From Stutzerimonas urumqiensis (GTDB lineage: Bacteria > Pseudomonadota > Gammaproteobacteria > Pseudomonadales > Pseudomonadaceae), in assembly GCF_003640395.1 (NCBI RefSeq), contig NZ_RBZQ01000003.1, positions 372,001 through 436,000 on the forward strand: a stretch of 64,000 bases of DNA, read 5' to 3'. Below the pieces are notes generated by a model. It had not been told where the DNA came from. It saw only the letters and a list, made by a program, of their open reading frames with translations, and did not search any database. The stretch's first letter is position 1. Every line of letters starts with the position of its first letter. Shown here in pieces: positions 48,578-62,005 of the stretch. The translations under genes were made by a program, and so were the position numbers.

Positions 48578-48596
48578 CCAGATTTGAATCATTCTC
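48578..48596. promoter_or_regulatory. Fur box of the siderophore uptake operon
   Basis: CCAGATTTGAATCATTCTC; the right half ATCATTCTC matches the Fur consensus at 8 of 9 positions, while the left half is weak (about 11 of 19 overall). It lies 53-71 bp upstream of the reductase ATG. Iron control fits the operon's content. Confidence 0.65.
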
Positions 48597-48648
48597 AATA
48601 ACGGGCGTAGACTCTTCGCGTTTGTAATGATCGGCGCGGTTCGACGTC

Positions 48649-49404
48649 ATGTCCCAGGATTGCCACGACCTGATTCAAGTGCTGCATGTCGCTGCCCGCG
48701 TATTGCCTGGGCTGACGGGCGAGGTCGGTGCGCCGCAAGGGCACCAGCTGAGCTGCGGGCGACCGGGCAACGCCGCCCAGGTAGCCGCGCTGCATGGCCA
48801 CTGGCAGCGCGCCCATCCCGAGGCCGGCCCGCACTACTGGTCGGCGCGCAGTTGGTCGTTGCTGATCTGGCAGCCGATCTACCTCAGCCTGCTGGCGGTT
48901 CACCTGTGCGGTCGTGCGCCCTGCCTGGCGCAGATGGGGCAATCGGTCGCCGACGGCTCGGTGTATGGCTTTCGCCTGCCGGCTCATTGTCCGTACCGCG
49001 GCGACCAGCGCGCGCTGGTGGCCTGCGCCAGCGAGCAGTTGCAGGCGTTCGTCGACAGCCAGCTGGCCGAATTCAACGCCGTCGCGTCCATCTACCCGAA
49101 GATGGCGCGCCTGCTGGTCGCCGACTGCCTGCGCGCGGCCCTGTTGCTGGCGCAGCGGCACGAACCGATCCCCAACGAGGCGCTGCTGGACGCCGAGTGC
49201 ACCTGGCTCGAAGCACTCGGCCTGCCGGGCGGCGGCGCGCTGGTGCCGCTGGCGCTCGACGACGGCCGCCAGTGCCTGGGCATGGGCCGCAAGGTGTGCT
49301 GCCAGCATTTCCGCCGCACCGACGGCGAGCTCTGTGACAGCTGCCCGAAGCTCGCGGCGGACGAACGCCTGCAGCGCTTGCGCACGCTGGCGGCCACATG
49401 CTGA
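48649..49404 (+). CDS. FhuF-like siderophore-iron reductase (2Fe-2S)
   Basis: A 251-residue cytoplasmic protein. The C-terminus CCQHFRRTDGELCDSC has the unusual Cys-Cys-x10-Cys-x2-Cys arrangement of FhuF, which holds a [2Fe-2S] cluster and reduces ferric hydroxamates to release iron. The N-terminal part is weakly conserved, as usual. First gene of the rightward operon behind a Fur box; its stop overlaps the ATPase start. Hydroxamate specificity agrees with the biosynthetic genes opposite. Confidence 0.85.
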   Translation: MSQDCHDLIQVLHVAARVLPGLTGEVGAPQGHQLSCGRPGNAAQVAALHGHWQRAHPEAGPHYWSARSWSLLIWQPIYLSLLAVHLCGRAPCLAQMGQSVADGSVYGFRLPAHCPYRGDQRALVACASEQLQAFVDSQLAEFNAVASIYPKMARLLVADCLRAALLLAQRHEPIPNEALLDAECTWLEALGLPGGGALVPLALDDGRQCLGMGRKVCCQHFRRTDGELCDSCPKLAADERLQRLRTLAATC

Positions 49405-50165
49405 GCCTCGAGGCCATCGAGGTCCGGCGCGACGGTCGGACGGTGCTGGCGCTCGACAGGCTGCAGTTCGGCGCCGGCAGCTTCACGGTCATCCTCGGGC
49501 ACAACGGCTCGGGCAAATCGACCCTGATGAACCTGATCGCCCGGCAGTTCGCCCCGGACCGCGGGCACATCGCGCTGGACGGCAAACCGCTGGCGAGCTA
49601 CGGCCAGCGCGCCTTCGCCCGCAAGGTCGCCTTCCTGCCGCAGCAGATGCCGGAGGTGGCCGGGCTGACCGTGCGCGAACTGGTCCGCCTGGGCCGCTTT
49701 CCCTGGCGCGGCCTGCTGGCGCGCTGGCAGCCCGAGGACGAACAGGCGATCGACCGCGCGCTGCGCCAGACCGACATCACCGACTACGCCGACCATCTCG
49801 CCGACAGCCTCTCCGGCGGCGAGCGCCAGCGTGCCTGGGTGGCGATGCTGCTGGCCCAGCAAGCGCCGCTGCTGCTGCTCGACGAGCCGACCTCGGCGCT
49901 GGACCTGGCGCACCAGTACCAGCTCATGGCCCTGCTGCGCGCGTTGAACCGGGAAACCGGGCGCGCCATCGTCGCCATCCTGCATGACGTCAACCTCGCG
50001 GCGCGCTTCGCCGATCGCATCGTCGCGCTCAAACGCGGGCGGTGCTTCTTCGACGGGACGCCCGAGCAGCTGCTGTCGGCCGAGCGCCTGAGCGCGCTCT
50101 ATGACGTCGACATCCGGCTGGTCGAGGAACCCGGACAGGCCCGCCGCATCGCCGTGGTGAGCTAG
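49398..50165 (+). CDS. Ferric-siderophore ABC transporter ATPase (FhuC/FecE type)
   Basis: A 255-residue ATPase: Walker A GHNGSGKST, Q-loop LPQQM, signature LSGGERQRAW, Walker [13 protein letters not shown] and switch His ILHDVNLAARF. Powers import through the fused permease downstream. Starts inside the last codons of the reductase gene (7-bp overlap), so translation is coupled. Confidence 0.93.
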   Translation: MLSLEAIEVRRDGRTVLALDRLQFGAGSFTVILGHNGSGKSTLMNLIARQFAPDRGHIALDGKPLASYGQRAFARKVAFLPQQMPEVAGLTVRELVRLGRFPWRGLLARWQPEDEQAIDRALRQTDITDYADHLADSLSGGERQRAWVAMLLAQQAPLLLLDEPTSALDLAHQYQLMALLRALNRETGRAIVAILHDVNLAARFADRIVALKRGRCFFDGTPEQLLSAERLSALYDVDIRLVEEPGQARRIAVVS

Positions 50166-52171
50166 TGCAGGCCGTCGCGACCAACACCGCGCCGTGGAAG
50201 CCGACCCACCTGCCCGGCCGCTACCTGGTCACCCTGCTGGCGCTCGGCGTGCTGGCCGCGCTGCACCTGAACCTCGGCATGACCCACTGGCCGCTGGACC
50301 GCTGGTCGCTGCGCCCGCCGCCGGCCGGCACCTTCGACGCGCTGGAGTTCGGCCTGTCCGTCCTGCCGCGCCTGACGATGGCGCTGCTGGTGGGCGCGGC
50401 ACTGGGACTGTCGGGCAGCGTGCTGCAACGCATGACGCAGAACCGCCTGGCCTCGCCGATGACGCTTGGCGCCGCCTCCGGGGCCTGGCTGGGGCTGACC
50501 GCCACCGCCGTGCTCGCGCCCGCGCTGGCCGCGACGCACGGCCACTGGGCCGCGCTCGGCGGCGCGCTGGGTGCGGTCGGGCTGGCGCTGCTGATCGCCG
50601 GGCGCAACGGCTCGGCCGGTCTGCCGGTGATCCTGGCCGGCATGGCGCTGAACCTGCTGCTCGGCGCCATCGCGACGGCCATCCTGCTGGTGCATAACCA
50701 GCACAGCCGGGGCCTGTTCATCTGGGGCGCCGGCGACCTTGGGCAGATCGACTGGCACTGGGTGCAGTGGCTGTGGCCGAAGCTGCTGGTGGGCCTCGTG
50801 CTGATCGCCCTGGCGCCGCGCCCGCTGACCCTGCTCCAGCTCGGTGGCGCGGGTGCGCGAGCGCGCGGGCTGTCGCTCTGGCCGGTGATGCTGGCGCTGT
50901 TTCTCGCCTGCCTGTGGCTGACGTCGGTCGCGATCACCGCGGTCGGGCTGATCGGCTTCATCGGGTTGATCACGCCCAACCTCGCCCGCCTGTGCGGCGC
51001 CCGCACCGCCCGCGACGAGCTGCTCTACAGCGCCTTGCTGGGCGCGCTGCTGCTGCTGGGCGCCGATGCCGTGACGCTGGTGCTGAACCGCTGGTTTTCC
51101 GAACTCATCCCCAGCGGCGCCGCGGCGGCGCTGATCGGCGCACCGGCCTTGCTGTGGCTGTCCCGCCGCCAGCTCGGCGCCGAAGACCGGCAAAGCCTCG
51201 CACTGCCGCCCGGCGCCGAACGGCTCGATCGACGGCGACTTGCGTGGCTGCTCCTGGCCGGCACGACGGTGGCGCTGCTCGGGCTGTTGCTCGCGCGCGG
51301 ACCGCAGGGCTGGACGTTCGGCTGGCCCTCCGAACTGCTCTGGTCGCTGCGCTGGCCCAGGCTGCTGGCGGCGGTCGCGGCCGGCTGCGGCCTGGCGGTC
51401 GCCGGGATGATGCTGCAACGCCTGCTGCGCAATCCGCTGGCCAGCCCCGACATCCTCGGGCTGACGGCCGGCGCCACGCTCGCCGTGGTCGCGGCGGTGA
51501 TGCTGTTCGGCGCCGGGCAGATGCAGCTGATCGCGCCCATCGCAGCCTTCGGCGGCAGCCTGCTGGTGCTCGGGCTGCTGCTGGTCTTCGGCCGCCGGCA
51601 CCGCTATTCGCCCGGCATCATGGTGCTGGTCGGCGTGTCGCTGGCCGCCCTGCTGAACACCGCCTTGCAGATCGGGCTGACCCGCGGCCAGGGCGACGCG
51701 CTGGCGCTGCTCGGCTGGCTGGCCGGCTCGACCTACCGCGTCGAAGCCGGCGAGGCGATCGTGCTGAGCGTCGCCGTGGTGCTGCTGGTCGGCATCAGCC
51801 TGGCCTTCCACCGCGCGCTGACACTGGTGTCGATCGGCGACGGCGTGGCCTTGAGCCGCGGGCTGGATGTCGGCCGCGCCCGGCTGGCGTTGTTGCTGCT
51901 GGTGTCGCTCTTGTGCGCGGTGGTCACCAGCCTGCTCGGTCCGGTGGCCTTTCTCGGCCTGCTCGCCCCGCACATGGCCGCGCTGCTCGGCGCTCGCCGG
52001 GTCGTGCCGCAACTGTTGCTGGCGGCGCTGCTGGGCGGCTGGCTGATGCTGGTGTCCGACTGGTTGGGGCGCTCGCTGCTGTACCCGCTGGAAATACCGG
52101 TCGGCCTGGTGGCCTCGATCCTGTGCGGGCTGTACTTCCTTTACCTGCTGATCCGGCACCGCGTCGCATGA
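50165..52171 (+). CDS. Fused ferric-hydroxamate ABC permease (FhuB type)
   Basis: A 668-residue permease made of two FecCD-type halves (about 1-335 and 340-668), the architecture of FhuB. Each half has the conserved coupling region: LSGSVLQRMTQNRLASPMTL in the first and AGMMLQRLLRNPLASPDILG in the second. About 18-20 helices. The start is GTG 50165, overlapping the ATPase TAG by one base; no ATG gives a full first helix. FhuB-type fusion is typical of hydroxamate importers. Confidence 0.92.
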   Translation: MQAVATNTAPWKPTHLPGRYLVTLLALGVLAALHLNLGMTHWPLDRWSLRPPPAGTFDALEFGLSVLPRLTMALLVGAALGLSGSVLQRMTQNRLASPMTLGAASGAWLGLTATAVLAPALAATHGHWAALGGALGAVGLALLIAGRNGSAGLPVILAGMALNLLLGAIATAILLVHNQHSRGLFIWGAGDLGQIDWHWVQWLWPKLLVGLVLIALAPRPLTLLQLGGAGARARGLSLWPVMLALFLACLWLTSVAITAVGLIGFIGLITPNLARLCGARTARDELLYSALLGALLLLGADAVTLVLNRWFSELIPSGAAAALIGAPALLWLSRRQLGAEDRQSLALPPGAERLDRRRLAWLLLAGTTVALLGLLLARGPQGWTFGWPSELLWSLRWPRLLAAVAAGCGLAVAGMMLQRLLRNPLASPDILGLTAGATLAVVAAVMLFGAGQMQLIAPIAAFGGSLLVLGLLLVFGRRHRYSPGIMVLVGVSLAALLNTALQIGLTRGQGDALALLGWLAGSTYRVEAGEAIVLSVAVVLLVGISLAFHRALTLVSIGDGVALSRGLDVGRARLALLLLVSLLCAVVTSLLGPVAFLGLLAPHMAALLGARRVVPQLLLAALLGGWLMLVSDWLGRSLLYPLEIPVGLVASILCGLYFLYLLIRHRVA

Positions 52172-53097
52172 AGATCCTGCTCGCGCTCTTCAGCCTGCTG
52201 GCGATCCTCTTCGGCGCCCCCTCGTTCGGCGCCCCCGCGCGTGCGGACGAGGCGCCGCGCATCGCCGCGCTGAGCTGGGAGCCGATTGAGCACCTGTTGA
52301 TGCTCGGCCTCGAGCCGGTCGCGGTGGCCGATGCCGACGACTACCGCGCCTGGGTCGTGCGGCCGACGCTGCCCGAGTCGGCGGTCGAGGTCGGCACGCG
52401 GACCGAGCCGAACCTCGAACTGCTGGCCCAGCTCGACCTCGACCTGATCGTCATCACCCCGCTGCTCGAAGACCTGCGCGACAAGCTGGAACGCATCGCG
52501 CCCGTGGTGTCCTACGGCGATTTCACGCAGGAACGCGACAACTACGCCATGCAGCGCGAGAACTACCTGGCGCTGGCCGAACGCGTCGGCCGGCTCGACC
52601 GGGCACGCGCGACGCTGGCGGCAATGGATGCACGGCTGGGTGAGCTGCGCGACCGGCTGCACGCGCATTTCGGCGAGTCGCTGCCGGCGGTGACGGTGGT
52701 GCGTTTCTCGACACCGACCGCCGTGCTTGTCTACGGCCCCAACTCCATGCCCCGGCATGCGCTGGAACTGCTCGGGCTGGAGAGCGCCTACGACACGCCG
52801 GTCAGCCGCTGGGGCAACCTGCAGCTGCCGGTGACGGTGCTCAGCGAGATCGACCGGGGCGTGGTGGTACACATCGAGCCCTTTCCGGGCGGGGAGCGCC
52901 TGTTCGACAGTCGCCTGTGGCAGGGGATGCCCTTCGTCCGGGCGGGACGCTTCGCCGGGATGCGCTCGACCTGGACCCACGGCGGCGTGTTCTGCGTGCT
53001 GTTCCTGGCCGAAGCCATTACCGAGGCCCTGCTGGAGATCCCGCCCACCGCCGTGCAGGCGGCGGGCGGGTCCGACTCGACCGAGCCGGCTCAGTAG
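52168..53097 (+). CDS. Periplasmic ferric-hydroxamate-binding protein (FhuD type)
   Basis: A 309-residue binding protein with a signal peptide (LLALFSLLAILFGAPSFG). The mature N-terminus RIAALSWEPIEHLLMLGLEP and DADDYRAWV match FhuD, and the two-lobe structure with a long central helix is expected (ALAERVGRLDRARATLAAMD). It hands the ferric siderophore to the FhuB-like permease. ATGA overlap with the permease stop. Its stop codon overlaps the end of the opposite receptor gene by 7 bp. Confidence 0.9.
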   Translation: MKILLALFSLLAILFGAPSFGAPARADEAPRIAALSWEPIEHLLMLGLEPVAVADADDYRAWVVRPTLPESAVEVGTRTEPNLELLAQLDLDLIVITPLLEDLRDKLERIAPVVSYGDFTQERDNYAMQRENYLALAERVGRLDRARATLAAMDARLGELRDRLHAHFGESLPAVTVVRFSTPTAVLVYGPNSMPRHALELLGLESAYDTPVSRWGNLQLPVTVLSEIDRGVVVHIEPFPGGERLFDSRLWQGMPFVRAGRFAGMRSTWTHGGVFCVLFLAEAITEALLEIPPTAVQAAGGSDSTEPAQ

Positions 53098-55280
53098 GCC
53101 CAGGTCAGGGTGACGGTCGCGTTGCGCGGCGCCGCGTAGTAGGTCTGCTCCCAGTAGAGGCTGGTGTAGTACTCCTCGTCGAACAGGTTGTTGACGTTGA
53201 GCGCGACATTGAAGTGCTCGTCGATGTCGTAGCTGGCCATCGCATTGACCACCGCATAGGCGTCCTGACGGGTGACGATGGTTTCGCCGGCCGCCGTGGC
53301 GCCCTGCTCCCGTGAAGTGTCGTCCTGCCAGATCAAGCTGCCGCCGACCTCGAGCCCGCGCACCTGCGGCACTTGGTAAGTGCTGGCGACGTAGAGGTAG
53401 TTGCGCGGCACATAGGTGCGCACCGTGCGACCTTCCTTGTCTTCCAGCGAGAACAGGTGCGTGAACCCGGCGCTGGCCTCCCAGTTGTCGGTGATCTGCC
53501 CGGCGAGCGTCAGCTCGTAGCCCTTGGAGATGGCGTCCACGGTGTTGTAGTAGGACACCCCCGCACCGCTGTCGAAACCGCCGTACTCGGGCGTGTTCTC
53601 CTGCTCGGTGCGGAATACCCCGGCGCTGGCGTTCAGCCGGCCCTCGAACCACTCGCCCTTGACGCCGCCCTCGACGCTGTCGCCCTCGATGGGATCGAGC
53701 AACGTCAGGTCCGCGCCCAAGAGGTGCTGCGGGCTGAAGATCTTGGTGTAGCTGGCGTAGGCCGAATAATGCCCGCCGAAGTCGTAGGTGACGCCAGCGT
53801 AGGGCGTGGTCTTCGATTCGGCGTAGCTGTGCTCGTCGCCGGTCTGATAGCCGCTGCTGTCGAGCCGGGTGTGGTTGGCGCCGAGGATCAGCTTGAGGCG
53901 GTCGGTCACGCTGAAGTGCCCGGCACCATAGACACTACGGCGATAGGTGGTGTAGTCCGCGCCGCTGGTCAGGCCGTTGTCGAAGTCCGGCCGCGGATAG
54001 TCGCCATCGAAGCCGGCCGGCAGCGGGATGTTGAAGGCGTCATCGTAGGACGACCAGCGCGTGGTCGAGCGCGACCAGTTGGTACCGACGACCGCCTCGT
54101 GGGTGCGACCGAACAGCTGGAACGGGCCCTTGAGGTAGGCATCGCCCAGCAGTTGCCGTTCGATGCGGTCGTACTTGGAGGCGTAGGTGAACAGGCCCGC
54201 CCCGGTGTCTGCGTCCGGCACGCCATAGGCGAGGAACTGCTCGGCGTCGGAGCTGATTTCCCGGTAGTTCAGCGACACCCGCGATTGCCAGCCGCCGCCC
54301 AGCCAACTGGTCAGCTCGGCGAAGGCCTGCTTGTCCTTCGTGTCCCAATAGGCCCAGTCCGGGGCGAAGCTCTTCGAGCGGCTGTAGTCGATGGGATCGC
54401 CTTCGCTGTCGTACACCGACAGGGCGCCCCACATGATGCCGTTGGGCCGGTTGCGCTGCTCCGAATAACCGAACAGCGCGGTGTTGCGGTCGTTCAGGTC
54501 GGCTTCGAGCATGGCCGAGAACACCGTCTTCTCCAGCGAGTAGCGGTCCAGGTAGGAGTCGCCGTCCTGCTGCACGGCGAGCACGCGACCGCGGATGCGA
54601 CCGGCCTCGTCCAGCGGGCCGGAGACGTCCAGCTCGCCGCGCACCGTGTCCCAGGAGCCGTAGCTCAGCGCGGCCTCGGCCTGGAAGTCGCGGGTCGGGC
54701 GCTTGCGCACGAAGTTGACGGTCGCCGCCGGGTTGCCGGGGTTGGCGGTCAGGCCGTTGGCGCCCTTGAGCACTTCGATGTGGTCGTAGAGAAAGGTATC
54801 GATGTCGCCCAGTTGCTCTTCGGAGCTGAACGGCAGGCCGATCCCGTCGATCTGGAAGTTCGACACGTCGAAGCCGCGCACCGAGTAGTAGGTGCGGTCG
54901 GTCTCGACCCGCTGCACGTTGACGCCGGCGGCCTGCAGCGCGCTGGTGGCGTTGGTCAGGTTGAAGTCCTCGAGCTGCTCACGCGTGAGGGTGATGGCAG
55001 TCTGCGGCGTCTCGCGCGGTGCGAGGTCCAGGCGCGTCGCGGTGCTGGTCGCGCCGATGGTGTAGGAATCGCTGCGCTCGGTGACGTTCGGCACTGCCGC
55101 GCGCTCGGCGGTGACATCCACCGGGTCGAGTACCAGCGGATCGTCCGTCTGTTGCGCGAAGCCGGCGCCCGGCGCCAGCAGCAGCGCGAAGGGGGCCAGC
55201 CGGCAGGCCAGCGCCAGGGCGGACAGCCGCGCCCGCGGCCCGGCCGGTTGAGTGGTCAGCGAGTAAGAGTGTTCGGTCAT
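53091..55280 (-). CDS. TonB-dependent ferric-siderophore outer-membrane receptor
   Basis: A 729-residue receptor. After a signal peptide (LAPFALLLAPGAGFA) come a TonB box-like segment (LVLDPVDVTA), the plug domain (TPQTAITLTREQLEDFNLTN, YYSVRGFDVSNFQIDGIGLP, YDHIEVLKGANGL) and a 22-strand barrel ending in TLTWAY. The plug resembles FhuE/FpvA-type receptors for hydroxamates. No long N-terminal signalling extension is present, so surface signalling through an ECF sigma factor is not expected. Last gene of the biosynthetic operon, 97 bp after the Rieske gene. Confidence 0.92.
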   Translation of the reverse strand: MTEHSYSLTTQPAGPRARLSALALACRLAPFALLLAPGAGFAQQTDDPLVLDPVDVTAERAAVPNVTERSDSYTIGATSTATRLDLAPRETPQTAITLTREQLEDFNLTNATSALQAAGVNVQRVETDRTYYSVRGFDVSNFQIDGIGLPFSSEEQLGDIDTFLYDHIEVLKGANGLTANPGNPAATVNFVRKRPTRDFQAEAALSYGSWDTVRGELDVSGPLDEAGRIRGRVLAVQQDGDSYLDRYSLEKTVFSAMLEADLNDRNTALFGYSEQRNRPNGIMWGALSVYDSEGDPIDYSRSKSFAPDWAYWDTKDKQAFAELTSWLGGGWQSRVSLNYREISSDAEQFLAYGVPDADTGAGLFTYASKYDRIERQLLGDAYLKGPFQLFGRTHEAVVGTNWSRSTTRWSSYDDAFNIPLPAGFDGDYPRPDFDNGLTSGADYTTYRRSVYGAGHFSVTDRLKLILGANHTRLDSSGYQTGDEHSYAESKTTPYAGVTYDFGGHYSAYASYTKIFSPQHLLGADLTLLDPIEGDSVEGGVKGEWFEGRLNASAGVFRTEQENTPEYGGFDSGAGVSYYNTVDAISKGYELTLAGQITDNWEASAGFTHLFSLEDKEGRTVRTYVPRNYLYVASTYQVPQVRGLEVGGSLIWQDDTSREQGATAAGETIVTRQDAYAVVNAMASYDIDEHFNVALNVNNLFDEEYYTSLYWEQTYYAAPRNATVTLTWAY

Positions 55281-55377
55281 TGGATTGGCATTCTTGTGAG
55301 TGACTGATCGGGTGCTTGCGAAAGGGAGTCGTGGTCAGTGCATGGCGTCCGTTCCTCGTGTGGGTGAAGGGCCGGCG

Positions 55378-56553
55378 TCATGCCAGGCCCGGTTCGGGCA
55401 CGCGTTGCATCACCGCGCGGTACCAGCGGTGGAAGTGCTGCATGCCTTCTTCGAGCGGTAGCTGGTAGGGCCCGCTGTCCTCTTCGCCGCGGCGATACAG
55501 CGCCCGGCGGCCGGCGTCAGTGCGCTCGGCGATCTCGTCGTCTTCCAGGGCCGTCTCGAGGTAGGCCACGCGGTGCGCCTCGCAGAGGTCGCGGTGGGTC
55601 TGGCGCAGCTCGGCCGGGTAATAGAACTCGACGACGTTGAGCGTCTCGTGGACGCCCTGCGGGTACACCGTCGAGAGCACCAGCGCGTGCGGGAAGACCT
55701 CGATCATGTGGGTCGGGTAGTAACTGGCCCAGATGGCGCCGAACGCGGGCGATTGCCCGCCGCAGTGCGCCAGCAGGCCCTCGTGCCAGGCGCGGTAGGC
55801 CTCGGTGCCGGCGCGGGCGAGGTTGGGCGTCACCGCGATGCGCTGCAGGCTGTACCAGTCACCGTATTCCCAGCTCAGGCCGCCGCTGTGCACGTAGCGG
55901 CGCAAGCCGGGGTGGAAGGAGGCGATGTGGTAGTCGTCGTTGTAGATCTCGATGAAGGTCTTCCAGTTGCACCGGCAGGGATGCACCTCGACGTGATCGA
56001 GCTCGTAACCGGCGAAATCCATCTCCGGGCGGTCGAACAGCGGGCCGATGTCGTCGGCCGGATTGCGCTCGCCCTCGAACAGAAAGCCGCCGACGTTGAA
56101 CAGCGGGTAGCGCGGCAGGTTGCGGCAGGGCCGCTCCGGAAACTTCGGCGCGCCGACGATCAGGCCGCGGTCGTCGTAGGTCCAGGCATGCAGCGGGCAG
56201 AGGATGCGTCCGCCGGTCGCGCGCAGGTTGCCGCGGCGAATGGCGCAGGGATCGCTGTCCGGGCCATAGTCGCCGAGCATCACCGCCTGCCGGTGCCGGC
56301 AGACGTTGGAGATCAGCTCGACGCCCTGTTCGTTGCGCACCAGCACGCGGGCGTGCTCGTCCTGCGGCAGGGCGTACCAGTCGCCGGGCCGCGGGACCAT
56401 CTTTTCATGCCCGACGTAGCGGGCACTGTGTCGGAAGACCAGCGCCTGTTCGCGCTCGTAGACGGCCGGATCGCAGTAATCGCCCACCGGCAGCTGGGGT
56501 GCCTGGACGGCCGGACGCGCCGTAGCGACGGCCAGTCGGTTGGGATTGAACAT
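55378..56553 (-). CDS. Rieske non-haem iron oxygenase in the siderophore operon
   Basis: A 391-residue ring-hydroxylating-type oxygenase alpha subunit. The Rieske [2Fe-2S] ligands are Cys85-x-His87 (NVCRHR) and Cys119-x2-His122 (ILCPLHAW), with 31 residues between the pairs, about 15 more than usual. The catalytic domain has His209 and His214 (DDYHIASFH) for mononuclear iron. The nearest known relatives by pattern are GbcA-like demethylases/hydroxylases. No reductase or beta subunit is encoded nearby. GCGAAGGAGCCTTTGC precedes the ATG at 56553. Its place between the synthetase and receptor genes implies tailoring or catabolism of the siderophore or its precursor; the reaction is unknown. Confidence 0.88.
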   Translation of the reverse strand: MFNPNRLAVATARPAVQAPQLPVGDYCDPAVYEREQALVFRHSARYVGHEKMVPRPGDWYALPQDEHARVLVRNEQGVELISNVCRHRQAVMLGDYGPDSDPCAIRRGNLRATGGRILCPLHAWTYDDRGLIVGAPKFPERPCRNLPRYPLFNVGGFLFEGERNPADDIGPLFDRPEMDFAGYELDHVEVHPCRCNWKTFIEIYNDDYHIASFHPGLRRYVHSGGLSWEYGDWYSLQRIAVTPNLARAGTEAYRAWHEGLLAHCGGQSPAFGAIWASYYPTHMIEVFPHALVLSTVYPQGVHETLNVVEFYYPAELRQTHRDLCEAHRVAYLETALEDDEIAERTDAGRRALYRRGEEDSGPYQLPLEEGMQHFHRWYRAVMQRVPEPGLA

Positions 56554-56676
56554 GCAAAGGCTCCTTCGCACGGGTGACCCGCGCTGCTCGCTCCGGCGCC
56601 GTGCAGGCAGCCGGAGGCCTTGCCCCGGCATCGCCCGGAGCGTTCGGCCCCGAGGGGCCGGTTGCCAATGACGGCG

Positions 56677-58539
56677 CTAGACCGGCAGCGCCTCTTCGCG
56701 CGTGGCGCCTCGCGGCGACCGCACCGGCGCATAGGGCGCGACCGGGTTATCCAGCGGGTCGGCCATGATCAGGCTGCCGGCCGGGTTGGCCAGGTCGACC
56801 ATCTGCAGGTTGTTCTTCAGTTGCAGGCGGTTGAGGCACGAGTGCAGGAAGGTCGGCGCGAAGAAGTCGTACCGCGCGAAACGCTCGGCCAGCGCCGGGT
56901 GCGCGCGCTGGTAGTCGAGGATCGACTCGGCCACGGTGCGCCAGAAGGCGTCTTCGGCCAGGCAGCCGCTGTCGTCGAGCAGCTGGCTCATGTGGCGGAA
57001 CACGCCGTCGAAGATGTCGATGAAGATGCCGAGGATCTTGTAGTCCTCCGGCACGTCGACGGCGAGGCGCTCCAGCCCGGCGGGCATCTTCGCGTCCTTG
57101 TCGAGGATGGCCGACTCCTCGGCGATGTCCTTCATGAACACGCGCGTCGGCACATGGCCTTCGAGGACCAGGATGAGGTTCTCGCCGTGCGGCATGAACA
57201 CTAGGTGGTGGGCATAGAAGCAGTGCACCACCGGCTCCAGGAAGGCACGCAGGTAGCGGCGCAGCCAGGCCTGCGGCGCCAGCCCGGAACGGCGGATGAG
57301 TTCCGGCAGCAAGGGCGTACCCTGCGGATCGACATGCAGCAGCGCGGCCATGGTCATCAGCCGCTCGCCGGTCTTCAGCCGCGGCATGGGGCTTTCCCGC
57401 CAGAGCGCCGAAAGCATCTTCTTGTAGGGGCTGTCGGTCTCCAGCGCCGCTTCGTAATAGCGGTTGCGGTAACCGACCGACGCCACCTCCCGGAGGATGC
57501 CGAAGCCATAGTCGCGCAGCACCGGGTCGGCGCTGATCAGGCGGTCGAGGTAAGCGTTGATCGCCGGCGTGCCGGCCATGTAGTACGGCGACAGGCCGCG
57601 CATGAAGCCCATGTTCAGCACCGACAGCGAGGTCTTCACGTAGCAACGGCCGGGCTGCGAACTGTTGAAGTAGGTGCGCACCGACTGCTGCGCGCAGTAG
57701 CGGTCGTCACCGAGGCCGAGCGGCACGATGCGGCGCTCGGCGATGTCGGCGGCGAACATGATCGACAGCTTGTTGAACCACTGCCAGGGGTGCGCCGGCA
57801 TGAACAGGTAATGCGCCGGATCGAGCCCGTCGCCGGCCAGCTGGCGACGGAATTCGACGAGCTGGCGCTCGCCCAGCTCCTGGCGTAGCAGCGTCTCGTG
57901 ATCGAGTCCGGGGACCGAGGCGAAGTGGGCGTTGTCCCGGTGCACGGCGAGCCAGACGATGGCGAAACGCGAGCCGGTTTCCGGCGCATAGGCATGGTAG
58001 TCGAGCGCGTCGAAGCCGAGCCGGCCGTTGTTGGCGACGAAGCCCGGATGACCTTCGATCATCGCCGCCTCGACCGTCTGGTAGTCGGCGTCGGCCAGCT
58101 CCGCGCTGGTCAGTGCCGGTCGCTCGTGCTTGTAGGCGGCGCCGTAGAGCGTGCTGCTGATCTCGTCGAGGTAGACGGGCAGTTTGTCCGGAGGAATCCC
58201 CAGCGTGCGCTTGAAGTCGATGACGAAGGTCAGGGCGTCCAGCGGCTGGGCCTGGCCATCGACCTCCCGCTCGATGGTGGAGGCATCCACATGCCAATGC
58301 CGCAGCGCCATCCGCCGCGCCTCGAAGCGATAACGACAGCCCTGCGTGTCAGCCACCAGCGCGTAACGACCCCAGCCGGCGCGCGATGCTTCGGCCAGCC
58401 ATTCTGGCTCGAACACCTGCTCGTGAGCGAACTCGGCGATGGCCTTGCGTACCAGCAGCCGGTTGACCTTGCGCCAGACGTCGGGGTGCAGATGCGTGAC
58501 CGCCGACGCGGGGCGATCGAGGCTTGGAGACATCGTCAT
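56677..58539 (-). CDS. NIS siderophore synthetase (IucA/IucC family, DesD/PubC-like)
   Basis: A 620-residue ATP-dependent amide-forming synthetase. Family blocks are GHPGFVANNGRLGFDALDYH, PAHPWQWFNKLSIMFAADIA, SVRTYFNSSQP, YVKTSLSVLNMGFMRGLSPY and HGENLILVLEG. The segment around NMGFMRGLS is typical of type C enzymes such as DesD and PubC, which join N-hydroxy-N-succinyl diamines into oligomers or macrocycles. Only one synthetase is present, which argues against aerobactin (needs IucA and IucC). CTGGAGGAACAGGCCC precedes the ATG, which overlaps the acyltransferase stop. Confidence 0.92.
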   Translation of the reverse strand: MTMSPSLDRPASAVTHLHPDVWRKVNRLLVRKAIAEFAHEQVFEPEWLAEASRAGWGRYALVADTQGCRYRFEARRMALRHWHVDASTIEREVDGQAQPLDALTFVIDFKRTLGIPPDKLPVYLDEISSTLYGAAYKHERPALTSAELADADYQTVEAAMIEGHPGFVANNGRLGFDALDYHAYAPETGSRFAIVWLAVHRDNAHFASVPGLDHETLLRQELGERQLVEFRRQLAGDGLDPAHYLFMPAHPWQWFNKLSIMFAADIAERRIVPLGLGDDRYCAQQSVRTYFNSSQPGRCYVKTSLSVLNMGFMRGLSPYYMAGTPAINAYLDRLISADPVLRDYGFGILREVASVGYRNRYYEAALETDSPYKKMLSALWRESPMPRLKTGERLMTMAALLHVDPQGTPLLPELIRRSGLAPQAWLRRYLRAFLEPVVHCFYAHHLVFMPHGENLILVLEGHVPTRVFMKDIAEESAILDKDAKMPAGLERLAVDVPEDYKILGIFIDIFDGVFRHMSQLLDDSGCLAEDAFWRTVAESILDYQRAHPALAERFARYDFFAPTFLHSCLNRLQLKNNLQMVDLANPAGSLIMADPLDNPVAPYAPVRSPRGATREEALPV

Positions 58540-59114
58540 GGGGCCTGTTCCTCCAGTGAGTGAGCGAAATCGCGTGCCGTGCAGAACGCCAGCCGGGCCG
58601 TCTTGCCCGGCAGCTGGACGGTCCCGGCGTCGACGAAGCCGACCAGCCGGTTGAGACGGTGCACCCGCTCGTTGCGCGCGTCCGGCTCGACCACCACCCG
58701 CTCGGCGCCCAGCGCGTCGAACAGGAAGGCCATGACCGTGCGCAGCACGTCGCGGGTGTAGTGGCGGATCGGCCGCTGGGCCGGCCCGACGAAGAAATGC
58801 ATGCCGATGTCGCCCGGCTGAACCGGGTAGCACGCGCCGAGCGGATCGCGCGCCGGGTCGTAGCACTCGACGACGAACGCCGGTGCGCCATCGTCGAACC
58901 CGAGGTAGGCGTCGAGGCCACGCTGCGCCGCCTCGCGGTAGAACGCGGCGGTGGCCTCGACGCTCATGTTCTGCATGTTCCAGAAGTGCGCGTAATCCAT
59001 CTGGTACCAGGGCTGGATGATCGCGACGTCCTGCTCGATCGCCAGCGGTCGCAGCGCGAAGGCCGGGTTCAGCGCCAGCCGGTTATCGGACGGTGTTATC
59101 CATTCAGGTTGCAT
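58536..59114 (-). CDS. Siderophore N-acyltransferase (IucB/RhbD-type GNAT)
   Basis: A 192-residue acetyltransferase of the siderophore GNAT group: WYQMDYAHFWNMQ near residue 36 and a C-terminal acyl-CoA region (GDIGMHFFVGP, RHYTRDVLRTVMAFLFD, RVVVEPDARNERVHRL). It acylates the hydroxylamine made by the monooxygenase, forming the hydroxamate. With a DesD-like synthetase the donor is probably succinyl-CoA rather than acetyl-CoA. Overlaps the MFS gene by 11 bp and the synthetase by 4 bp. Confidence 0.9.
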   Translation of the reverse strand: MQPEWITPSDNRLALNPAFALRPLAIEQDVAIIQPWYQMDYAHFWNMQNMSVEATAAFYREAAQRGLDAYLGFDDGAPAFVVECYDPARDPLGACYPVQPGDIGMHFFVGPAQRPIRHYTRDVLRTVMAFLFDALGAERVVVEPDARNERVHRLNRLVGFVDAGTVQLPGKTARLAFCTARDFAHSLEEQAP

Positions 59115-60303
59115 GGCAGGCCTGCTCTGTGGCGCGGTGGCGCTGGTCGACGCCGAACCAGCCGCGATCGATCACGGCGGTCAGCACCATTCCGGCGGCC
59201 GCAATGGCGAAGGTCGTCGGCACGCCAACGAGCGCGACCAGGTAGCCGGCGCTGAACGACGACAGCAGCACGCCGAGGTTCTGGAAGAAGTTGGTCACGC
59301 CGAAATCGCGCGCATAGACCTCGGGCGTGCTGACCTTGAACAGCGTGACCTCCAGCTTGACGATCACCTGATACAGCGCCCAGCCGTAGAGGCAACGACC
59401 GACGATGATCAGCCAGGGCGAAGGGCTGGCCTGGAGCGCCAGGCCCACCGCGCCGAGCAGCAGGTTGAACAGCGTGTGGTCGACCCAGCGTGGCGGGCTG
59501 GCGATCCGGTAGCGAACGGCGAGCGCCAGCAGTGCGACGATCCCCGGAATGGCGAACACCAGCCCGGTGAGCATCTGTTCGGCGATCCCGGTGCGCGCTT
59601 CCCAGTAGACTGTGAAGAACGGCCGCACCAGGTAGGCGCTGAAGTCGAACAGGAACATCAGCAGGCTCAGCTTGAGCAGCGCCGCCAGGGCCTCAGGCGT
59701 GCGGCGCGGCGCCGGCGCGGCCCGTTCGGTCTCGTCACTCGACAGCACCCGCACCACTCGCCCGCTGCGGATCAGGTAGGTGCAAAGCCCGAACTGCGCG
59801 AGATCGCCGGCCGCCATCAGCGCGACGCAGAACCGCGGGCCGAACTCCTGCAGCGCCAGCCCGCCCACCGCGGCGCCGAAGATCGCGCCGATATGAATCA
59901 CCACAGAGAGCAGGCCAATGGTCACGCTGTGCCGGTCGGCCGGCTCCAGGCGCATCAGGTAGGGGAACATCAGCAGGTAGCTGGCCTTGGTCATGAACAT
60001 GAGCATGGTCAGCAGCCAGTACGCCTCGACCGTCGGCGCCCAGATCGCCAGCAGGCAGAAGGTGGTGGCGGCCAGCTGGGTATAGGCCAGCAGGTGCATG
60101 GTCTCGACGCACCGCGCCACCCGCGCCCAGAACGGCAGCATGCACATCACCGCGATGGAGATGGCGGCGATGTAGGCACCCACGTGCACCGAACTGGTCA
60201 GGCCATAGCGCAGCTCGAAGAACTGCGGGTAGAAGGCGATCAGGATCGAGTCGCTGATCACGCCGAAGGCCGACATGATCAGGATGGTCGTACGCAGCGT
60301 CAC
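59104..60303 (-). CDS. MFS transporter, probable siderophore exporter
   Basis: A 399-residue major facilitator with 12 predicted helices and a long central cytoplasmic loop (SSDETERAAPAPRRTPE). The position inside the biosynthetic operon points to siderophore export across the inner membrane. GTG start at 60303 overlaps the monooxygenase stop as GTGA and begins directly with the first helix (LRTTILIMSAFGVISDSILI). Confidence 0.85.
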   Translation of the reverse strand: MTLRTTILIMSAFGVISDSILIAFYPQFFELRYGLTSSVHVGAYIAAISIAVMCMLPFWARVARCVETMHLLAYTQLAATTFCLLAIWAPTVEAYWLLTMLMFMTKASYLLMFPYLMRLEPADRHSVTIGLLSVVIHIGAIFGAAVGGLALQEFGPRFCVALMAAGDLAQFGLCTYLIRSGRVVRVLSSDETERAAPAPRRTPEALAALLKLSLLMFLFDFSAYLVRPFFTVYWEARTGIAEQMLTGLVFAIPGIVALLALAVRYRIASPPRWVDHTLFNLLLGAVGLALQASPSPWLIIVGRCLYGWALYQVIVKLEVTLFKVSTPEVYARDFGVTNFFQNLGVLLSSFSAGYLVALVGVPTTFAIAAAGMVLTAVIDRGWFGVDQRHRATEQACHAT

Positions 60304-61637
60304 GAGCCGACGGCCTCCCGTTCCAAGGCGACGAAGCCGCTGTCTTCGCCCGGCGCGAAATCCTGGAAGGCGGTGCGCGGCTCGCTCGGGTAATGGTCGT
60401 GGCCGGTCAGCTCGGCCAGCAGCCGGCTGTTGCGGTGGCACGCCAGACCGAGGTCGGGGTTGGTCAGGCCGTGGCTTTGCAGCCCCACGTTCTGCACGAA
60501 GATCTCGCGGTTGTGGTGATCGACCGCCCAGCGCTTGGAGGGGGCATATTGGCCCTGGCTGTTCCAGCGGATGCGCGCTCGGATGCCCTCGACGAAGGCC
60601 GGCACCTGATGGCGATAGCCGGTGGCGAACACCACGCCGTCGACACGGTGGCGGTAGCGCCGGCCGAGCTGGGTGTGGCGGAAATCCAGCTCCCAGCCGC
60701 GGCCGTCCGGCGCACGGCGGCAGGCTTCGAGCGCCATGCAGGTCAGCAGTCGCGTCGGCGGCGCGTCGCGGTGGCGGCGCTCGTCGAGCAAGGCGTAGAG
60801 GCGCTCGATCAACGACTGGTTGATGCCGTTGTAGATGCTGCGCTGGTCGTCGAGTACCTCGGCCTTGGTCGCCGGGTCGAGGTCGTAGAAGTAGTCGCCG
60901 TATTCGGGGGTGATGAGTTCGAGCGTGAGCTTGGCGTCTTCCATCTGGAAGAAGCGCGGCGCGCGGGTGACCCAGTTCAGCGTGTAGCCGTGACGCTCGG
61001 AGCCTTGCAGCAGGTCGTGATAGACCTCCGCCCCGCTCTGCCCGCTGCCGACGACCGTGATGCTGCGCCCGGCCTGCAAGCGCGCCCGTTCGGCGAGGTA
61101 GCCGCTGCTGTGGACCAGGTGTTCGCGATCCAGCGCACCGCAGCCGTCGGGGAAGCACGGCACGCCGCCAATGCCGATCACGAGCTTGCGGGCGCGGTAT
61201 TCGAACGTCCCGCCGTCCTCGATTCGCCGCCCGCGAACGACATACTGGCCGGTCGCCGGCTCATGGCGAATGCCCTGCACCTCGTGCCCGCAACGCAGGT
61301 TATCGAGCTGCGCCGCGGCCCAGCGGCAGTAGCGGTCGAACTCCTGCCGATCGAGGTACCAGTTCTCGCGGATGTAATAGGTGTAGAGCCGGCCCTGTCG
61401 CTTGCAGTAGTTGAGGTAGCTGAACGGGCTGGTCGGATCGGCCATCGAGACCAGATCGGCGAGGAAGGGGTTTTGCAGCGTGGTGCCATCGAGCAGCATG
61501 CCCGGATGCCAACTGAAGGCCGGCTTGCGCTCGAGGAACAGGCTACGCACGCCGGACAGCGGCGCGGTCAGGCAAGCAAGCCCGAGGTTGCAGGGCCCAA
61601 CGCCAATCGCGATGAAATCGTAGGTCGATTCATTCAT
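60300..61637 (-). CDS. Siderophore N-hydroxylating monooxygenase (IucD/DesB/PubA-like)
   Basis: A 445-residue FAD/NADPH-dependent enzyme hydroxylating the terminal amine of lysine, ornithine or a diamine. FAD motif GVGPCNLGLA (about 12-21), LQNPFLADLVSMADPTSPFS, NADPH motif VVGSGQSGAE (about 205), and the C-terminal FATGYRHQVP. First gene of the leftward operon, 47 bp downstream of a strong Fur box. Whether it acts on amino acid or diamine cannot be read from sequence by eye, but the synthetase type favours cadaverine or putrescine. Confidence 0.92.
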   Translation of the reverse strand: MNESTYDFIAIGVGPCNLGLACLTAPLSGVRSLFLERKPAFSWHPGMLLDGTTLQNPFLADLVSMADPTSPFSYLNYCKRQGRLYTYYIRENWYLDRQEFDRYCRWAAAQLDNLRCGHEVQGIRHEPATGQYVVRGRRIEDGGTFEYRARKLVIGIGGVPCFPDGCGALDREHLVHSSGYLAERARLQAGRSITVVGSGQSGAEVYHDLLQGSERHGYTLNWVTRAPRFFQMEDAKLTLELITPEYGDYFYDLDPATKAEVLDDQRSIYNGINQSLIERLYALLDERRHRDAPPTRLLTCMALEACRRAPDGRGWELDFRHTQLGRRYRHRVDGVVFATGYRHQVPAFVEGIRARIRWNSQGQYAPSKRWAVDHHNREIFVQNVGLQSHGLTNPDLGLACHRNSRLLAELTGHDHYPSEPRTAFQDFAPGEDSGFVALEREAVGS

Positions 61638-61683
61638 CGTCTCTCATCTCCGCAGCGACCTGTCGAGGTCCGAGGAGGCTAGA

Positions 61684-61702
61684 GTTGATGAGAATCATTG
61701 TC
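61684..61702. promoter_or_regulatory. Fur box of the siderophore biosynthesis operon
   Basis: GTTGATGAGAATCATTGTC matches the 19-bp Fur consensus at 15 positions, including 13 of the last 15. It lies 47-65 bp upstream of the monooxygenase start and about 150 bp upstream of the sRNA start on the other side. Confidence 0.85.
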
Positions 61703-61775
61703 AAATCAGAAACAGTATTATCTTCATCTGGCCGAAGACCCTGTTCGGGCGCTGCGGTTCCGGCGCAGACGCGGC

Positions 61776-61842
61776 TATGGCGAATGGCTTACACGATGAG
61801 CCGACTTCGTCCATTCTTGCTCACCCCTTGCCTGCGTAGACT
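61776..61842 (+). promoter_or_regulatory. Probable GacA-dependent promoter of the Rsm sRNA
   Basis: GacA upstream sites read TGTAAG-N6-CTTACA. Here the right half CTTACA is exact (61,788-61,793) while the left half is poor. TAGACT at 61,837-61,842 is a fair -10 element. The distance from the half-palindrome to the predicted RNA start (about 60 nt) is as in known rsm genes. Confidence 0.55.
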
Positions 61843-61848
61843 TAATTG

Positions 61849-61980
61849 CAGGTGTCGAGGACAGACACCAGCCCGCAGGACGCGGGTCAGGACGTTGCAA
61901 GGATGCGGCGCTTCAGGACGAAGACCCAGGGCAGGACAGGAAAGACATAAAGGCGCGGGCTAAAACCCCGCGCCTTTTTT
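61849..61980 (+). ncRNA. Rsm-family sRNA (RsmX/RsmY/RsmZ type), CsrA/RsmA antagonist
   Basis: A predicted RNA of about 130 nt, the usual Rsm size. It holds seven GGA motifs. Several lie in hairpin loops: GTGTC-GAGGACA-GACAC (61,852-61,868), CCCGC-AGGAC-GCGGG, GC-AAGGAT-GC and CTTC-AGGAC-GAAG, with two more GGA in an unpaired stretch (GGGCAGGACAGGAAAG). The 5' GTGTCGAGGACAGACAC hairpin resembles that of RsmX. A Rho-independent terminator closes it. Such RNAs sequester RsmA/RsmE and relieve repression of secondary metabolism, biofilm and virulence genes under GacS/GacA control. Which of the named members it is cannot be told without synteny to a reference. Confidence 0.85.
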
Positions 61981-61981
61981 G
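61949..61981 (+). terminator. Intrinsic terminator of the Rsm sRNA
   Basis: AAAGGCGCGGG-N7-CCCGCGCCTTT with further T residues (six in all) on the plus strand. On the minus strand the stem is followed by ATGTCTTTC, so it serves mainly the rightward RNA. Confidence 0.92.
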
Positions 61982-62005
61982 TTGCGTCCGAAAAAGCATG
62001 CGCCA

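Follow-up and report, generated by a model that had tools for sequence, protein, structure and literature searches.

An AlcE-like Rieske oxygenase, predicted to C-hydroxylate a diamine, in a rearranged alcaligin-type siderophore locus of Stutzerimonas urumqiensis

What is a Rieske oxygenase doing in a hydroxamate siderophore operon? The gene that raises this question lies in a stretch of Stutzerimonas urumqiensis DNA of 64,000 nucleotides, the whole of which was analysed and is called the window below. The original prediction placed it between the genes of an IucA/IucC-type synthetase and of a TonB receptor, and both its existence and its position were borne out by the open reading frame and by Pfam. 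We conclude that it is probably a homologue of alcE in a rearranged alcaligin-type locus, and that its product is predicted to C-hydroxylate the diamine unit of alcaligin or of a close analogue.

The gene encodes a protein of 391 residues, with AAGGAG as its ribosome site. A longer frame of 417 residues can be read from an ATG further upstream; comparison with the relatives favours the start at 56,553. The protein contains the Pfam domains Ring_hydroxyl_A (2.4e-28) and Rieske (1.1e-08), each scoring over its cut-off. The Rieske ligands C85, H87, C119 and H122 and the presumed iron ligands H209, H214 and D338 are kept in all 94 rows of the family alignment. Comparison with two relatives of the genus gave a dN/dS of about 0.15 (0.073/0.482 and 0.121/0.832), which indicates that the gene is under purifying selection.

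Table 1. Coordinates in the window of the siderophore locus and of its candidate regulatory elements
Feature	Position	Strand	Basis and remarks
alcD-like siderophore ferric reductase	48649..49404	+	TIGR03950 219.6 bits, cut-off 137.9; 39% to Bordetella alcD product
fhuC-like ATPase	49398..50165	+	ORF; name from position and relatives' loci
fhuB-like permease	50165..52171	+	ORF; name from position; kept beside operon in relatives
fhuD-like binding protein	52168..53097	+	FhuD 6.9e-48 (under cut-off); Peripla_BP_2
TonB-dependent receptor, fauA/fhuE-like	53091..55280	-	FauA top NCBIfam; TIGR01783 over cut-off
alcE-like Rieske non-haem iron oxygenase gene	55378..56553	-	Predicted diamine C-hydroxylase; Pfam, Bordetella AlcE identity, ligands
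GC-rich hairpin without T run	56645..56660	-	GGCCCC..GGGGCC right after alcC stop; not scored as terminator
alcC-like NIS synthetase	56677..58539	-	Best solved relative 2x0o; 60% to Bordetella AlcC
alcB-like GNAT acyltransferase	58536..59114	-	Acetyltransf_8 5.7e-44; 47% to Bordetella-locus alcB product
MFS protein in exporter's place	59104..60303	-	MFS_1; same place in relatives, between A and B
alcA-like diamine N-monooxygenase	60300..61637	-	Lys_Orn_oxgnase 7.6e-116; 55% to Bordetella-locus alcA product
Fur-box match upstream of operon	61684..61702		15/19; window's top match
Weaker Fur-box match ahead of alcD-fhuCBD	48584..48602		12/19; chance-level score, position alone suggestive

The genes of an N-monooxygenase, an acyltransferase and a NIS synthetase are all present in one operon of the window (Table 1). 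Four overlapping genes stand upstream, the ATG of the synthetase gene at 58,539 overlapping the stop of alcB, and are followed by a gap of 123 bp, the Rieske gene, a gap of 97 bp and the receptor gene. The genes of the ferric reductase and of FhuC, FhuB and FhuD are divergent, on the plus strand. With the NCBIfam models, the receptor scored 494 bits for FauA (cut-off 900) and 472 for FhuE (cut-off 666). The MFS protein gave no match to Bordetella AlcS and is not a detectable homologue of it. A reductase partner of the Rieske protein had been said to be missing nearby, and this holds within the scope of PF00175: no match to that family was found in the window, and the six in the genome are all on other contigs.

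The locus was compared with that of a Bordetella-genus genome (G082), which has the order alcA-B-C-D-E-R-S-fauA, under gene names assigned here after the literature. Identities between the two were 60% for AlcE (over 357 residues), 60% for AlcC, 55% for AlcA, 47% for AlcB, 39% for AlcD and 35% for FauA. The alcA, B, C, D, E and fauA-like genes are all present in the window; no AlcR match was found there, the best one in the genome (32%) being on another contig. The window protein shares with Bordetella AlcE its metal ligands and the location of its gene, which follows alcC in an operon for a hydroxamate, but differs from it by a bridging Asp206 (Glu in Bordetella AlcE) and by 21 diagnostic residues. 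The loci themselves differ in that the window has alcD in the divergent operon, no alcR, another MFS protein in the exporter's place and a receptor with 35% identity.

According to the accessible text of PMC3510459, AlcE is an iron-sulfur protein assigned to the C-hydroxylation of alcaligin precursors, and a Yersinia cluster is similar to the alcaligin locus but lacks alcE. This precedent, together with the identity to Bordetella AlcE, overturns the view that pathways of this type never use a Rieske oxygenase. The same source removes the surprise at an iron-sulfur enzyme in a siderophore operon, which is not new since AlcE is already known in alcaligin biosynthesis. The putrebactin, bisucaberin and desferrioxamine loci share with the window the logic of an N-monooxygenase, an acyltransferase and a NIS synthetase; unlike the window, they have no Rieske gene named in the part of PMC8891985 that is accessible. 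In the open-access literature searched we found no paper that links a Rieske protein with both alcaligin and hydroxyputrescine, none on a 'putrescine 2-hydroxylase' and none on alcaligin in Stutzerimonas; the accessible portion of PMC2864759 gives no account of the Rieske gene in stutzeri.

The gene had also been described as lying behind a strong Fur box, and the window's best match is indeed found 47-65 bp ahead of the operon's first gene. Its score of 15 was reached in none of 60 first-order resamples, the top resample score being 14, in 4 of them; the four window sites scoring at least 13 are within the resample range of 0-5 and represent no excess. Among 13 loci of relatives, five gammaproteobacterial ones have a Fur site of 12-14/19 at 61-72 bp and four others score 9-10. 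A separate promoter at 56,554-56,676 had been named as evidence that would detach the gene from the operon. None was seen there in a sigma-70 scan of 53,000-62,000, a weak scan since it found none ahead of the operon's first gene either. The Rieske gene belongs to the siderophore operon and is probably under Fur control. The hairpin that follows alcC, which is also present in loci L036, L037 and L038, could tune alcE relative to alcABC.

Linkage to siderophore genes was surveyed across genomes. In the window's genus, 7 of 56 genomes carry the Rieske gene (81-100% identity), and in all seven it adjoins the synthetase gene (82-100%); 17 further genomes of the genus have another synthetase (60-61%), and none of these has the Rieske gene at E 1e-60. 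All seven alc-type loci were mapped by BLAST. In each of them the genes run alcA-MFS-alcB-alcC-alcE-receptor, and alcD, fhuB and fhuD are divergent from these; fhuC is missing from two and split in one. We observed no fhuC between alcD and fhuB in L040, L193 and L194, and alcD and fhuC each in two adjoining pieces in L192. Two of the 17 other-type loci were read (L190 in genome G093 and L191 in genome G010): both have the order A-MFS-B-C-D, with a PF00282 decarboxylase gene directly upstream of A and dxs nearby, and are probably of the desferrioxamine type. No homologue of this decarboxylase was found in the window or in 11 alc-type loci compared with it, including the other six of the genus.

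Outside the genus, stand-alone homologues are common. Twenty genomes were chosen for carrying the Rieske gene, and 12 of them have no synthetase gene; among Bordetella-genus genomes, 15/15 have a Rieske match and only 2/15 the synthetase. Of 104 labelled rows (redundant copies included), 51 had no synthetase within 3.5 kb on both sides, 23 had one and 30 could not be judged. The expectation of constant linkage therefore stood for the window's genus (7/7) and for the siderophore-linked copies, which form one group, and failed for the wider family (12/20 stand-alone; 13/15 in the Bordetella genus). The contig-wide locus scan covered the best 80 of at least 587 confirmed loci, so that frequencies in it are biased. 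Whole-genome searches at E 1e-60 gave a single Rieske copy in 10/10 gammaproteobacterial genomes, and a second, unlinked copy (in one case cut by a contig end) in all six of the betaproteobacterial genomes covered whose alc-type locus is unbroken. Further alc-type betaproteobacteria, such as Caballeronia and Cupriavidus campinensis, lie beyond these copy counts.

A 3.7 Mb Bordetella-genus genome (G081) has an alc locus (L168, G081:C1:3142000-3157000) in which alcE matches only as three overlapping pieces, as it would if its frame were broken. The sole Rieske match of this genome at E 1e-60 is partial and located elsewhere. This organism may produce a non-hydroxylated ring, a sequencing error being the alternative explanation of the broken alcE.

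The position of alcD varies between lineages. It comes just before alcE in Bordetella, in Cellvibrio and in the other mapped betaproteobacterial alc-type loci except that of Advenella, and accompanies the divergent uptake genes in the window, in its genus and in two other Pseudomonas. We considered AlcD as the electron donor of the Rieske enzyme and rejected this candidate, as its gene goes with the uptake genes in the window and is retained in two Rieske-free loci; a role in iron release fits this arrangement better.

A tree was built from the 94 family rows and 4 outgroup rows, 11 of 105 sequences having first been dropped as duplicate, partial or redundant. The family, including the window protein, is set apart from the outgroup with a support of 99. 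Within it, the 18 siderophore-linked copies form one group (support 86, branch unstarred), nested in a mostly stand-alone betaproteobacterial family. This suggests, on a branch that is not strong, that the enzyme may have been recruited once into siderophore synthesis and later transferred to gammaproteobacteria. The copy in L097, a metagenome-assembled record labelled Thermoflexus hugenholtzii (Chloroflexota), groups with betaproteobacterial ones and is probably mis-binned. The stand-alone betaproteobacterial relatives belong to a putrescine 2-hydroxylase family, an activity taken from the literature. They resemble the window protein in identity (50-59%), in Tyr204 and in their metal ligands, but differ from it in having no synthetase gene nearby and in position 206, which is Glu in 76/76 stand-alone or unjudged rows. 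The C-hydroxylase in a 2016 paper on putrescine C- and N-hydroxylases is reportedly a Rieske protein.

The window protein falls outside the subgroup of Bordetella AlcE. It belongs to a group of nine rows (support 99.8), here called type II, which comprises the window, three relatives of its genus, Pseudomonas bohemica, P. mendocina, Cellvibrio, Cupriavidus campinensis and Advenella. For the type I copies as a single clade, the AU test gave p 0.374, which neither establishes nor rejects such a clade. The type II species also form one group in the synthetase tree (97/98). At the thresholds used, no residue separated all siderophore-linked copies from the others, the clear split being that between type II and the rest. 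The 21 diagnostic columns are fixed in at least 8/9 type II rows, no more than 5% of the remaining 85 rows share them, and many are near the catalytic iron motif: residues 195-230 contain 9 against 2.06 expected (p 3.9e-05, for a stretch picked post hoc and with relatedness ignored). The enrichment had a p of 0.00078 for residues 196-226 and of 0.044 for 270-305, and residues 20-160 were depleted (4 vs 8.07).

Position 206 is Asp in 9/9 type II rows and Glu in 85/85 other family rows and 4/4 outgroup rows. Residues 203, 205, 206, 210 and 220 of type II differ from those of all 85 other rows, the neighbours of Asp206 being Ile203, Asn205, Ile210 and Tyr220, and Ala or Gly is found at 123, beside the Rieske ligand H122. 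Position 206 aligns with the bridging Glu205 of CntA, and Tyr204, which is present in 94/94 family rows, aligns with the amine-binding Tyr203 of CntA; an aromatic residue at this CntA position is a feature of group Va. These placements rest on the sequence and on the CntA alignment, the predicted model (mean pLDDT 84.2) being poor at 208-222, the metal-ligand loop. The single change E205D is cited in the accessible text of PMC7948474 as rendering CntA inactive; since the window protein has Asp at this position, its substrate may differ. As far as the open-access literature searched goes, the window copy apparently represents an undescribed lineage of AlcE, with an altered catalytic centre, in an otherwise known kind of operon.

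In profile and fold searches the top match was Stc2, an amine oxygenase. CntA was one of the best, and many ring-hydroxylating enzymes came close behind; a single-sequence search against solved proteins placed ring-hydroxylating dioxygenases above CntA. The resemblance to the group V enzymes CntA (carnitine) and Stc2 (stachydrine) thus lies in these matches and in the two aligned residues, whereas identity to the window protein is about 20%, TM-scores are 0.6-0.7 and the substrates of both are quaternary amines.

The choice of diamine was approached through the decarboxylases. Two observations favour putrescine as the diamine: among solved structures, proteins of this genome come closest to lysine/ornithine and to biosynthetic arginine decarboxylases, and the locus itself yielded no decarboxylase gene. 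One of the genome's decarboxylases is nearest to 6q6i, which bears the PDB label arginine decarboxylase, and has LdcC as its best NCBIfam model, under the cut-off. We take 6q6i to be Pseudomonas LdcA, a lysine decarboxylase, and its relative in this genome may, to judge by its sequence, supply cadaverine. The synthetase does not settle the matter. Its solved relatives are 2x0o, an 'alcaligin biosynthesis protein' (834 bits), DfoC (720) and DesD (708), but its identity to Bordetella AlcC, about 60%, is no higher than that to the Rieske-free synthetases of the genus (60-61%), and in an unrooted tree its group is not united with Bordetella AlcC, the Rieske-free synthetases attaching between them. 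Identity to both types and the unrooted tree mean that the synthetase does not decide the product.

From the observed homology, linkage, conserved ligands and grouping we infer the reaction, the order of steps, the substrate and the product as follows. Iron starvation would relieve Fur repression of the operon. General metabolism would provide a diamine, most likely putrescine, which would be N-hydroxylated by AlcA and then succinylated by AlcB. The Rieske enzyme, a putative monooxygenase made of alpha subunits only, would use O2 and electrons from an unlinked reductase to place one hydroxyl on carbon per diamine unit, acting either on the diamine itself or on its N-hydroxy-N-acyl derivative. 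AlcC would then cyclodimerise the units, and alcaligin or something closely similar would result. Among the roles first proposed for the gene was hydroxylation of the siderophore or of its diamine precursor, and the AlcE homology and the alcaligin-type locus make it the best supported, as a prediction.

We considered the possibility that type II enzymes have a changed substrate or position of attack, acting on cadaverine, on an intermediate that contains cadaverine or at another carbon of the diamine, so that a hydroxylated ring of the bisucaberin or avaroferrin type or an isomer of alcaligin would be formed. The distinctness of the group of nine, the five residues unlike those of all other rows, the grouping of the same species' synthetases, which the tree does not join to Bordetella AlcC, and the possible lysine decarboxylase in the genome are all consistent with this. 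Yet Tyr204 and the metal ligands are unaltered, and among solved synthetases the alcaligin one is closest. Moreover, no decarboxylase gene was found in the locus, whereas both of the other-type loci read have one. We regard such a change as unlikely. Similarly doubtful is its more explicit form, in which this would be a second siderophore-linked type of AlcE whose replacements of Glu206 by Asp, Leu205 by Asn and Arg123 by Ala or Gly shift the substrate or regiochemistry towards an undescribed macrocyclic dihydroxamate, for example a ring with C-hydroxylated cadaverine.

The enzyme might also hydroxylate free putrescine for polyamine purposes and be in the operon by coincidence. Most of the wider family is unlinked (51 labelled rows without a synthetase, 23 with one and 30 unjudged). 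The accessible text of PMC10385936, in which the word Rieske is not used, mentions putrescine hydroxylases from Bordetella bronchiseptica and Ralstonia solanacearum; such genes of betaproteobacteria are believed to produce 2-hydroxyputrescine, and this compound is part of alcaligin. However, the seven copies of the genus occur only with this synthetase and the siderophore-linked copies group together; moreover, a second copy is kept in the six betaproteobacterial alc-type genomes searched, as against a single one in the ten gammaproteobacterial genomes. A coincidental polyamine enzyme is thus very improbable. Even less credence can be given to a catabolic oxygenase, ring-hydroxylating or demethylating, inserted by chance. 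Its Pfam domain is a ring-hydroxylating one and ring-hydroxylating dioxygenases lead the single-sequence matches, but no partner subunit or PF00175 reductase is encoded nearby. This candidate was rejected on the strength of the linkage conserved across genera, the purifying selection and the profile and fold searches, in which an amine oxygenase came out closest.

With C-hydroxylation of an alcaligin-type diamine as the preferred reading, the gene that had looked anomalous would encode the C-hydroxylase already known from alcaligin synthesis, in this case in a genus resembling Pseudomonas. Members of the genus that have the Rieske gene would then be expected to produce a C-hydroxylated ring, and those that lack it an unmodified one. 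The residue that bridges electron transfer has changed naturally from Glu to Asp, a replacement that reportedly inactivates CntA when made alone; since companion changes go with it here, it would provide a case for studying how a Rieske oxygenase tolerates such a swap. Finally, since the gammaproteobacterial genomes searched have a single copy, these organisms would be well suited to distinguishing an AlcE that hydroxylates putrescine itself from one that takes the acylated intermediate.
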